In this document: one piece after another, positions 31,789 to 34,910 of the stretch
How the letters are laid out: the number at the start of each line of letters is the position of its first letter
How positions within the stretch are numbered: position 1 is the stretch's first letter
The notes under the pieces: generated by a model
Told to the model about the DNA's origin: nothing
Database searches by the model: none
What the model saw: the letters and a program-made list of their open reading frames with translations, nothing else
Translations under genes and position numbers: made by a program
Assembly: GCF_022968795.1 (NCBI RefSeq)
Contig: NZ_JALJRB010000030.1
Span: 1-52,767, forward strand
Length of the DNA: 52,767 nt
Origin: Desulfatitalea alkaliphila
GTDB taxonomy: Bacteria > Desulfobacterota > Desulfobacteria > Desulfobacterales > Desulfosarcinaceae
Reading direction: 5' to 3'

Positions 31789-32108
31789 TGATTGCAGCGG
31801 ATCAATTCTTGACCATCGCCATTCATGGCGCCCTGCTGGTGCTGCTGATCAGCATGGCCCTGGTGCTGTGGCGGCTGTTCCGCGGCCCCAGCGCCGCCGA
31901 CCGCGTGGTCGCCATGGACCTGCTTACCGTGCTGGTGCTGGCCTTCGTGGTGGCCTTTGCTATCTACACCCGCGAAACCACCTATCTGGATGTGGCCATC
32001 GCCTACGCCTGCATCGCCTTCTTGGGCACCATCGCCCTGGCGCGCTTTCTGCTGCGGGCCTATCACCGGATGTGGTGTTACGAACAGGAGGGCAAGCTGG
32101 ATGAGTGA
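31788..32108 (+). CDS. mnhF: Mrp-type Na+/H+ antiporter, subunit F
   Basis: This 106-residue, three-span membrane protein carries the MnhF motif LWRLFRGPSAADRVVAMDLLTVLVLAF. Its ATG shares one base with the mnhE TAA, and its stop overlaps the mnhG start. Confidence 0.92.
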   Translation: MIAADQFLTIAIHGALLVLLISMALVLWRLFRGPSAADRVVAMDLLTVLVLAFVVAFAIYTRETTYLDVAIAYACIAFLGTIALARFLLRAYHRMWCYEQEGKLDE

Positions 32109-32469
32109 ATACATCGCCGGTATTCTGATATGGGTGGGCAGCGGTTTCTGTTTCGTGGCCGCCCTGGGCATCGTACGCCTGCCCGACACCCTCACCCGCA
32201 TGCATGCCGCCACCAAGGCGGGCACCCTGGGCGCCGGCCTGCTGATCATCGGCGGGGCCGTTTTTTTCCAGGAGCTGCTGGTCACCTTGAGGGCCCTGAC
32301 CATCATCGCCCTGGTGGTGCTCACCGCTCCGGTGGCGGCCCATCTCATCGGCCGGGCTTCTTATGAGAGCGGGGTGCCCCTGTCCGATCGCACCTGGATC
32401 GACGAACTGGAGGCCTACGAAAACGAAAAGCGTGCCAGCGAGCAGTATTGTCAGCCGGGGGAGTGGTAG
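32101..32469 (+). CDS. mnhG: Mrp-type Na+/H+ antiporter, subunit G
   Basis: This 122-residue, three-span membrane protein has the MnhG signature GIVRLPDTLTRMHAATKAGTLG and TAPVAAHLIGRAS. The C-terminal 35 residues are hydrophilic. It starts 8 nt inside mnhF and is the last gene of the operon. A convergent minus-strand small ORF ends 65 nt downstream. Confidence 0.93.
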   Translation: MSEYIAGILIWVGSGFCFVAALGIVRLPDTLTRMHAATKAGTLGAGLLIIGGAVFFQELLVTLRALTIIALVVLTAPVAAHLIGRASYESGVPLSDRTWIDELEAYENEKRASEQYCQPGEW

Positions 32470-32534: not shown

Positions 32535-32711
32535 TCAGTTCATAGATGGTACCAGGATTGTCGCGTCCAGCCGCAGTCCTTCGGCCAGGGCCACGCTCAG
32601 CGCGTTTTTGCGGAGCCACCGCAGGTAACAGCGTTGAAATGCGGGATTCGTAAAACCGATGGTCTCGCCCATCCAGCTCAGTTCCTGTTGAATGCGCCAA
32701 TACAGTTGCAC
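32535..32711 (-). CDS. Unrecognised 58-residue ORF downstream of a cobalamin riboswitch
   Basis: This small ORF reads from GTG 32711 to TGA 32535. A strong ribosome site (AAAAGGAG, 32720-32727) lies 8 nt upstream. The product has no membrane segment or signal; it is rich in Arg, Leu, Gln and three Trp, starting MQLYWRIQQELSWMGETIG and containing FQRCYLRWLRKNALSVALAE. It has one Cys and no His. I recognise no family. It is the only ORF behind a promoter, cobalamin riboswitch and intrinsic terminator on the same strand, and mnhG faces it from the other side, so nothing else can be the regulated gene. It could be a real B12-controlled small protein or a remnant of a lost gene. Confidence 0.55.
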   Translation of the reverse strand: MQLYWRIQQELSWMGETIGFTNPAFQRCYLRWLRKNALSVALAEGLRLDATILVPSMN

Positions 32712-32770
32712 GGGGCACGCTCCTTTTCACGACCGTTCTCTATTTTTCACCGGCGAGGGTGCCGCCCGTA

Positions 32771-32812
32771 TTCAAAACAAGAAAACCCGGATCGAAGTGC
32801 TTCGATCCGGGT
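32771..32812 (-). terminator. Intrinsic terminator between B12 riboswitch and small ORF
   Basis: A perfect 13-bp stem (32785-32797 with 32800-32812, CCGGATCGAAG-type arms) has a 2-nt centre; on the minus strand it is followed by a T-rich tract TTTCTTGTTTT. It lies about 60 nt downstream of the riboswitch aptamer and about 60 nt upstream of the small ORF, the position expected of a ligand-controlled terminator. Confidence 0.85.
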
Positions 32813-32873
32813 CGGCCCTGTTTGCCACGGATGTTGGATGGGGCGGGGCGGTCTCCTCGCTGCCATTGCCCTT

Positions 32874-33038
32874 GCGCCAGGCAGGTCTTCTGACTTTCGG
32901 ATCATCCGCGCGGCCGCGCCTTCCCGGCAGGTCGTTCACCAGTGGCATATGTCGGCCGCCGTCCCCGATTACAGCGGCGGGCCCGTCCCCGATTCCCACG
33001 GGGTTCCCTGTTCGGCTCCTTGCGGAGCACCTGGGCGC
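32874..33038 (-). ncRNA. Cobalamin (B12) riboswitch
   Basis: Read on the minus strand, the element has the hallmarks of the adenosylcobalamin aptamer: a closing stem in which GCGCC-CAGGT (33038-33029) pairs with ACCTG and GGCGC near 32874-32886; the B12-box GCCACTG (32940-32946); the CGCCGCTGTAA segment (about 32975); GGGAAGGC (about 32926); and the terminal AGTCAGAAGACCTGCCTGG. The length, about 165 nt, is typical. When B12 is bound such elements normally lower expression of the downstream gene, here the 58-residue ORF, through the terminator at 32771-32812. Confidence 0.93.
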
Positions 33039-33046
33039 TGACCGTC

Positions 33047-33074
33047 ACTTTAGTCCAATGCCGAAGAAAGTCAA
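33047..33074 (-). promoter_or_regulatory. Sigma70-type promoter of the riboswitch unit
   Basis: Minus-strand -35 TTGACT (33074-33069) and -10 TAAAGT (33052-33047) are separated by 16 bp. Transcription would begin near 33040, exactly at the 5' end of the cobalamin aptamer, which supports both calls. Confidence 0.75.
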
Positions 33075-33179: not shown

Positions 33180-34910
33180 ATGGCACAGCATCCGGCAGAT
33201 CCAATGCATTACGAACTGGCGCGCATCCGCACGGAGGCGGCCACCGGGTATTTCGACGCCCGGCCGGAGGCGCCGCTCTCCTTTGCGCAAGCCCTGTCCT
33301 GGTGCCGATCTCATCCCAACGACCAGTTCATGCGCAAGCATTTGCTGCGCATGGTGGCCGAATGGTCGCCCGACGAGATGCAGGATCACATTCGGCGCGC
33401 CGACCGGGAGGATCTGTTCCTGCAGGCCCTGCTGCTGGAGGCGTGTATTGTCTTGCAGCCCTTTTTTCCTTTGCAACGGCGTTTTTCAGACAAACAACAG
33501 TCACGGTTGGCCGCCTTTGCGCCCTCGATTTACATCAAGGCCCACCGGCTGCGGGACCACCGCCTGCACCGCCGCTGGATCAAGCTGTTGCGCCCCAATT
33601 TCCTGCGGCATGACCCATTGCCGGCCCCTGAACCCATTGATTTGGCGGCGCCGGTTGCAGCGCAGGCCGTGGATCGGGCCATGGCCGCCCCCGAACCTTT
33701 GGACCGGCTGGCCGAGCGGCTCGCGCCGCCGGACGGGCCGGTGGCACCGGCGGGGCCCGATGCCGCCGCCATGGCCGCCGAGGCGCTGGCGCGGTTGACC
33801 CGCGCCGGGATCGATGTGGGGCCTGAGATGCGTCACGAAGCATCCCTGAGTCCCATCGCCCTTTTGCGCGAATGGCAATTGAATTTCGGCGTGGCCTGCG
33901 GCCGACACCACTATCGCCTCACAGGTCGCCAGATCGCCTTCGGCCGGGGATTGTCCTTGGAGAACGCACGGGTGGCCTGCGTCATGGAGATCGTGGAGCG
34001 GGTGTCGGCCTACGCCGACATCGCCGACAACGCGGCCCGGGGGTACGCACAGGACCTGCCCCTGGTGCGGGCCCGGTTTTCTGAATTGCAGCAGGAAGGT
34101 TTTGCTGCCCTGGATCCCGACCGGTTGGGATTGGAGGCGCCCTACCGGGACGAACCGCTGTACTGGGTGGAAGGTCGCAGCGCCGCCGCAGCCGGCGCCC
34201 AGCCTGTGCGGGTGCCGGCCCAAGCCGTGTTCTTGTTCAGCAATCTGGACGAGACGGCCCTCTTTTCCGGGCTGGGGTCTACCGGCTTGGGCGCCGGCGC
34301 CACCCCGGCCCAGGCCCGCTGCCAGGCGCTGCTGGAGGTGATCGAGCGGGATTGCGCCGCCACGATGCCCTGTGTCCCGGCTCTCTGTTTCGATATCGAA
34401 CCGGACGATCCCGCCGTCGCACGCCTGATGCAGCACTATGCGGCACGGGGCATCCGGGTGGGGTTTGTCGACCTGACCGGCCCCTTGGGAGTGCCGTGCT
34501 GTAAAAGCTACGTCGTGGCGGCGGACGGCACGTTGGCCATCGGCACGGGCGCCCATCTGGATGCCCGACGGGCCCTGCTTTCGGCCCTCACCGAAACCAC
34601 TTATCCGTTTCCCAACGGGCCGCCTTCGCGACCGCCGTCGCCGGCGGCGGTCAGGGTACCCCTGTCCGCCTTGCCCGATTACGACCGCGGCGATCCGGAG
34701 CGGAACCTGCACATGCTGGAAAACCTGCTGCTGGCCAACGGGTTCGAACCGATCTATGTGGATTTGACCCGTGCGGACCTGGGACTGCCCGTGGTGCGCG
34801 CCATCGTGCCGGGCATGGAGTTGCTGGGCGATTTCGATCGCTTTTCCCGGGTCCACCCCCGCCTTTACGGTCACTACCGTAAATATGCCCCGGGTCCTGA
34901 AGCGAAATAA
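33180..34910 (+). CDS. YcaO-domain protein
   Basis: YcaO enzymes use ATP to activate amide bonds, making azolines, thioamides or related backbone changes. The 576-residue protein has an uncharacterised helical N-terminal region (1-190), a Pro/Ala-rich linker (about 145-205), then the YcaO domain (about 230-570). The ATP-site glutamates are in ENARVACVMEIVERVSAY and QARCQALLEVIERDCA, and the later helix LDARRALLSALTETT is present. The C-terminus (PRLYGHYRKYAPGPEAK) lacks the PxPxP ending of azoline cyclodehydratases. No partner (E1-like, TfuA) and no clear precursor peptide is adjacent. Start ATG 33180 with GAGGGAGG. Substrate unknown. Confidence 0.82.
   Translation: MAQHPADPMHYELARIRTEAATGYFDARPEAPLSFAQALSWCRSHPNDQFMRKHLLRMVAEWSPDEMQDHIRRADREDLFLQALLLEACIVLQPFFPLQRRFSDKQQSRLAAFAPSIYIKAHRLRDHRLHRRWIKLLRPNFLRHDPLPAPEPIDLAAPVAAQAVDRAMAAPEPLDRLAERLAPPDGPVAPAGPDAAAMAAEALARLTRAGIDVGPEMRHEASLSPIALLREWQLNFGVACGRHHYRLTGRQIAFGRGLSLENARVACVMEIVERVSAYADIADNAARGYAQDLPLVRARFSELQQEGFAALDPDRLGLEAPYRDEPLYWVEGRSAAAAGAQPVRVPAQAVFLFSNLDETALFSGLGSTGLGAGATPAQARCQALLEVIERDCAATMPCVPALCFDIEPDDPAVARLMQHYAARGIRVGFVDLTGPLGVPCCKSYVVAADGTLAIGTGAHLDARRALLSALTETTYPFPNGPPSRPPSPAAVRVPLSALPDYDRGDPERNLHMLENLLLANGFEPIYVDLTRADLGLPVVRAIVPGMELLGDFDRFSRVHPRLYGHYRKYAPGPEAK

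Follow-up and report, generated by a model that had tools for sequence, protein, structure and literature searches.

In the riboswitch class represented by RF00174, B12 represses the gene that lies behind the aptamer. Small proteins of two other kinds also bear on the locus described here: FbpB, which is Fur-regulated and made on nutrient limitation, and the small cobalt-uptake subunits CbtB and CbiN, which are membrane proteins. The genes of cobalamin regulons have been sorted into biosynthesis, transport of B12 and its precursors, cobalt transport, and isozymes (PMC3766115), and in the accessible table of that survey the Desulfovibrionales are the sole delta-proteobacterial group seen. The accessible parts of PMC545781 and PMC3766115 give the usual regulon categories and no small protein of the kind found here. 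The literature searched, which included few subscription papers and was also queried by a sequence-motif search blind to papers that print none, holds no report of this small-protein family.

The locus lies in contig NZ_JALJRB010000030.1 of Desulfatitalea alkaliphila, the whole of which (52,767 nucleotides) is referred to here as the window. As the sequence-only reading had described, a complete riboswitch unit is present on the minus strand with its parts in order: an RF00174 aptamer, a terminator, the ribosome binding site AAAAGGAG and a 58-codon ORF (Table 1). The aptamer scores well above the gathering score of 31.5 bits, covers all model positions from 1 to 189, and no other Rfam family reaches its gathering score in the window. 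The covariance search bears out the aptamer itself, while the span first given for it, 32874-33038, proves slightly short. For the promoter that had been claimed, a promoter-like site is recovered, with one such site found against 0.3 expected in the consensus scan. The claimed 13-bp terminator lies past the aptamer and ahead of the start codon, and provides an expression platform there. Since 1.1 such sites are expected per shuffle in a scan of the whole window, this hairpin is not significant by itself. Among loci in which the small gene is directly switched, a strong hairpin with a T tail occupies the stretch from aptamer to start in 9 of the 10 scanned, compared with 10 of 200 shuffles of these stretches. 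No clear antiterminator emerged from a duplex scan, in which the candidates differ and several pair with the aptamer part ATCGGGGACGGGCCCG, and the whole leader folds no better than shuffles (z -0.94). The gene that faces the unit, taken for mnhG by inspection both in the sequence-only reading and here, is convergent as reported and ends 65 bp from the stop of the small ORF. Predicted B12 control of the 58-residue product follows from the anatomy of the unit and the established behaviour of the riboswitch class. A reading of the ORF as a leader peptide or uORF was rejected; the next gene is convergent, and the ORF of relatives often sits after full genes.

Table 1. Features of the riboswitch unit and its immediate neighbours (window positions)
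Feature	Position	Strand	Basis
Sigma-70-like promoter site, TTGACT-16-TAAAGT	33047..33074	-	Consensus scan, 9/12 matches
Cobalamin riboswitch aptamer, RF00174	32863..33049	-	cmscan, 103.2 bits, E 8.3e-25
Intrinsic terminator hairpin, expression platform	32784..32813	-	13 pairs, loop 4, T-rich tail
Ribosome binding site AAAAGGAG, 8 nt ahead of GTG start	32720..32727	-	Direct sequence reading
58-codon small ORF; GTG at 32711, stop ending 32535	32535..32711	-	ORF list, homologues
mnhG-like gene, convergent, context only	32101..32469	+	ORF list; relatives by tblastn
YcaO-domain gene, divergent, context only	33180..34910	+	PF02624, E 3.2e-49

The small ORF has homologues. A tblastn search with its 58-residue product gave matches in 32 of 146 relatives (E <= 0.1), of which ~20 are full-length and convincing by eye. 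A profile of 20 rows places the family in 45 of the 389 genomes of a class draw, all labelled as the same order or closer. A profile of 44 rows places it in 20 of the 395 genomes of a phylum draw, and 12 of these 20 lie outside the class (labelled only 'same phylum'), one of them a weak match; the locus of the weak match in G521 was not taken in. A single narrow pattern applied to GTDB contigs yielded a further view of the spread, with 18 confirmed loci under titles that include Desulfatitalea, Desulfobacteraceae, Desulfosarcina and Deltaproteobacteria; the family may reach further than this. Members are 54-68 residues long, and homologues mostly retain both the start site and the length. Four residues (M1, Y4, L11 and W32) are invariant among 45 aligned members, and W5, G15, E16 and P23 are kept in 44 of the 45. 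Conservation spans residues 1-44 and the C terminus, where an Asn is found in 52 of 55 members. The total of 61 family loci includes six that were excluded from A3 and from the selection test: L126 (frameshift), L127, L128 and L129 (cut or partial), L193, and L110, which has a stop after residue 46 and is kept in the conservation column counts.

The pattern of substitution is that of a protein-coding gene under constraint. Among the 25 closest pairs, 24 have a dN/dS between 0.08 and 0.41, and the remaining pair, at 0.66, consists of two copies within one genome. The window protein and its nearest relative (G004) are 67% identical with a dN/dS of 0.14, at a dS that has already reached 1.5. When all 1485 pairs are compared, a good many of which are distant, pN is smaller than pS in 1482. 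Judged by these comparisons, the 58-codon ORF is a real gene of a conserved family under purifying selection. A lack of homologues, or frameshifts in close relatives whose riboswitch precedes a different, larger gene, had been named beforehand as findings that would count against the ORF; neither was found, yet several loci are partial and one gene looks frameshifted. The latter, L126/L056 of Desulfosarcina cetonica, is apparently shifted near residue 11, by a sequencing error or as a pseudogene.

The window protein has one Cys, no His and no membrane-like segment, as had been noted. No membrane-like segment is found in any of 55 members, in which the top hydropathy window of 1.53 is below the usual membrane threshold. 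The pI varies from 4.6 to 10.1 across the family, neither of the two Cys positions is invariant, and no His is conserved. A membrane subunit or a classical metal-ligand chaperone is therefore not indicated. The predicted fold consists of two helices and a short third, followed by a low-confidence tail; for residues 1-40 the pLDDT is 90-94 in a relative and 79-87 in the window protein. The impression that the product resembles nothing known also stands, as Pfam and NCBIfam return 0 families for it at E <= 1 and PDB sequences give no match below E 0.7. When 44 members were searched against Pfam and NCBIfam, each family was matched by at most two of them, and a Foldseek search of PDB folds found no solved structure at E <= 0.001. 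One member has a DsrC-like match (Pfam E 0.006, NCBIfam E 0.09), which was judged to be chance.

Many of the family loci are associated with B12 genes or riboswitches. The 49 class loci were scanned for RF00174 with Infernal over 4.5 kb upstream and 1.5 kb downstream, or less where a contig ended, and 22 of them carry the riboswitch in these flanks. In 11 of the 49 the switch is direct, i.e. on the same strand, <=400 nt upstream and with no recognised gene between, whereas 0.011 direct loci would be expected from the density of riboswitches across the 45 carrier genomes when related loci are treated as independent. Because the loci are related, a formal probability for this excess is meaningless. 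The direct arrangement occurs in families f1, f42, f59 and f67 of the order and in f106 and f121 outside the class. RF00174 is also present at 5 of the 12 loci that lie outside the class, at three of them directly and at two in the order riboswitch, receptor, small gene, CobO (Pfam was run on one of the two). Over all 61 family loci, RF00174 is found in the scanned flanks of 27 and directly upstream in 14. A same-strand B12 gene lies <=5 kb away in 27 of the 61, with queries drawn from the same loci and identities assigned by Pfam. A riboswitch without such a gene accounts for 11 more, and 38 of the 61 are linked either way. The other 23 show no B12 link within the available flanks, which in 6 of them extend <500 nt upstream. 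Neighbours that were tested include members of the Pfam families CobO, CbiA/GATase_3, CbiK, CbiC, CbiD, FecCD, TonB_C and TonB-dependent receptors, where the labels 'BtuB' and 'BtuC' stand for TonB-dependent receptors and FecCD permeases in a B12 setting. No constant neighbour of the small gene was found across the family loci. Together with the conserved family and its dN/dS, these linked loci support the earlier suggestion of a new, putatively B12-responsive small protein.

Several features of individual loci were noted in passing. In genus g89 a switch is detected in 3 of 9 loci, and L112, from this context, keeps a terminator and a ribosome site upstream of the small gene with no aptamer, apparently a truncated riboswitch. 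In f67 an MFS transporter gene lies beside the small gene (L117, L119, L123 and L125); it is divergent in two switched loci and on the same strand upstream in two loci without a riboswitch. Closely spaced pairs of cobalamin riboswitches occur in L087 (955-1145 and 1411-1602), G101:C8 and G177:C110, and the genome G023 has 24 RF00174 matches. The source genome has 8, the window site included. The other seven precede two TonB-dependent receptors, CbiM, CobT, a CobN-like gene, a CobD/CobQ-like ORF and an aldehyde ferredoxin oxidoreductase, with one receptor and the CobD/CobQ-like ORF assigned by eye only. The aldehyde ferredoxin oxidoreductase (L001, 1501-3191) is not an obvious B12 gene.

Within the genus of the window the context of the small gene varies but remains one of B12 loci. 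It stands alone behind a riboswitch in G000 and G004, between a riboswitch and CobQ in G006, between CbiA and CbiC in G002 and G005, between CbiA and a CbiD ORF in G010, and between BtuC and BtuB in G003. The last of these orders suggests that the solitary unit in the window may be a remnant of a larger operon. Profile search finds no small gene in two genus-mates, G001 and G009 (98% completeness), so the gene is dispensable. The family tree is built on few columns and has many unresolved forks, and the history that can be drawn from it is therefore limited to repeated change of context. Presence of the gene was also compared with that of pathway genes in 80 genomes, 33 carriers and 47 non-carriers, the latter defined by no tblastn match at E <= 0.1 and no profile match, so that divergent members could escape. 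Neither CbiC nor CobO discriminates between the two groups. CbiC is present in 22 of the 33 carriers and in 24 of the 47 non-carriers (Fisher P 0.18), and CobO in 30 and 41, respectively. Nor do the groups differ in having cobalamin riboswitches, which are found in 79 of the 80 genomes, non-carriers included. As presence is tied to none of these, uptake and activation, which are common to makers and scavengers of B12, would be the likeliest place for the protein to act.

Based on these observations, the small protein seems to be a soluble, helical, B12-repressed factor that assists corrinoid acquisition or activation, a reading to which we give a probability of roughly 0.6. When adenosylcobalamin is scarce, the transcription-terminating riboswitch would turn on the single gene behind it. 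The product would be a soluble protein of ~57 residues with two predicted helices, a short third and the conserved C-terminal Asn. It could serve as an accessory factor in uptake (BtuB/BtuCDF) and in the steps that follow, for example where CobO adenosylates or CbiA amidates the corrinoid, and would most likely act by binding another protein. An overlooked B12 helper is probable because the family is conserved and is often placed among the B12 uptake and synthesis genes of related bacteria. More tentatively, the protein could be a carrier or adaptor in corrinoid trafficking or sensing, made only under B12 scarcity, that passes the corrinoid to the next enzyme. Such a role would explain why the gene is found in operons for uptake, cobaltochelatase, amidase and adenosyltransferase without a fixed partner.

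A considerably less likely alternative to the helper is a B12-sparing regulator, whose targets would be the enzymes that use B12 or the mRNAs of these enzymes. In Bacillus, FbpB has a comparable role for iron. A regulator acting in trans would fit with riboswitch units that stand alone and with a gene that has no fixed partner, and 11 of the 33 carriers keep the gene although CbiC was not detected in them. When 44 members were compared with the FbpB model, a single one gave a match, at an E of 0.1 that is not significant. However, the gene is frequent inside structural B12 operons (CbiA-small-CbiC, CbiK-small, BtuC-small-BtuB), and with the range in pI noted above the family is not generally basic.

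A RiPP-like precursor is an improbable identity for the small protein; a radical SAM/SPASM enzyme would mature it into a cobalt- or corrinoid-binding peptide. The logic of methanobactin is the model for such a metal-binding product. A radical SAM/SPASM protein is encoded <=7 kb from the small gene in 7 of the 49 class loci, from 6 genomes (one such gene is common to two loci of G160), and for two of these proteins the best NCBIfam match is the PapB ranthipeptide maturase, below cut-off. Six of the 33 carriers have such a protein, compared with one of the 47 non-carriers (Fisher P 0.018, uncorrected). However, with at most 26 candidates scored per genome, 27 of the 33 carriers, the source genome included, have no maturase match at E <= 1e-40, and a general radical-SAM RiPP precursor was rejected on this count. 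In two of the six carriers that have one (G023 and G095) the match lies away from the small gene, and the conservation pattern is unlike that of leader versus core. The YcaO gene that adjoins the window unit also fits a RiPP, but none was found <=5 kb from the other 60 family loci. The enrichment suggests that the radical SAM/SPASM gene is another B12-operon gene. Examples in B12-uptake operons are L083 (2703-3746), L082 (12155-13159), L103 (G160) and L120 (1956-2981). The YcaO protein beside the unit is 576 aa long and matches TIGR00702, the NCBIfam model for YcaO-type domains in general, above cut-off, with the SagD-type and McrA thioamidation models below theirs.

Two further explanations would make the ORF irrelevant, and both are very improbable. 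Antisense-acting riboswitches are described in the accessible part of PMC9943018, and the close convergence with mnhG would suit an RNA directed against its 3' end with an incidental ORF, but the ORF is conserved as a protein, its relatives adjoin quite different genes, and of the mnhG-like loci of relatives (7 returned, 5 scanned) only the one that also has the small gene carries a riboswitch. The other explanation, an orphaned switch that has lost its true target and is followed by debris, can borrow from the G003 order the loss of a larger operon in the window, but the debris it supposes is contradicted by purifying selection and by an ORF that is full-length, with its start, ribosome site and terminator, in G004 as well as in the window genome.

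The favoured helper in corrinoid acquisition or activation can be compared with three kinds of known system. Like FbpB-like proteins, members of the family are short, soluble and expected when one nutrient is scarce; they differ in having no significant match to FbpB, a riboswitch in place of a repressor, and a gene that is often inside pathway operons. Like CbtB and CbiN they are small proteins in B12 regulons, but no membrane-like segment and no conserved His are found among them. With the surveyed RF00174 regulons, as far as PMC545781 and PMC3766115 are accessible, they share the aptamer family and the kinds of neighbour (CbiK, CobO, CbiA, BtuB, BtuC and CobT), whereas the product here is a 58-residue protein without a family match. 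What is new relative to these systems is a protein family that forms part of the B12 regulon in several families of related bacteria. A conserved small protein in B12 operons, sometimes with a riboswitch of its own, points to a missing accessory step in corrinoid acquisition or activation, and the family offers a concrete target for study that is small and expressible, has conserved residues and would be induced under a well-defined condition.
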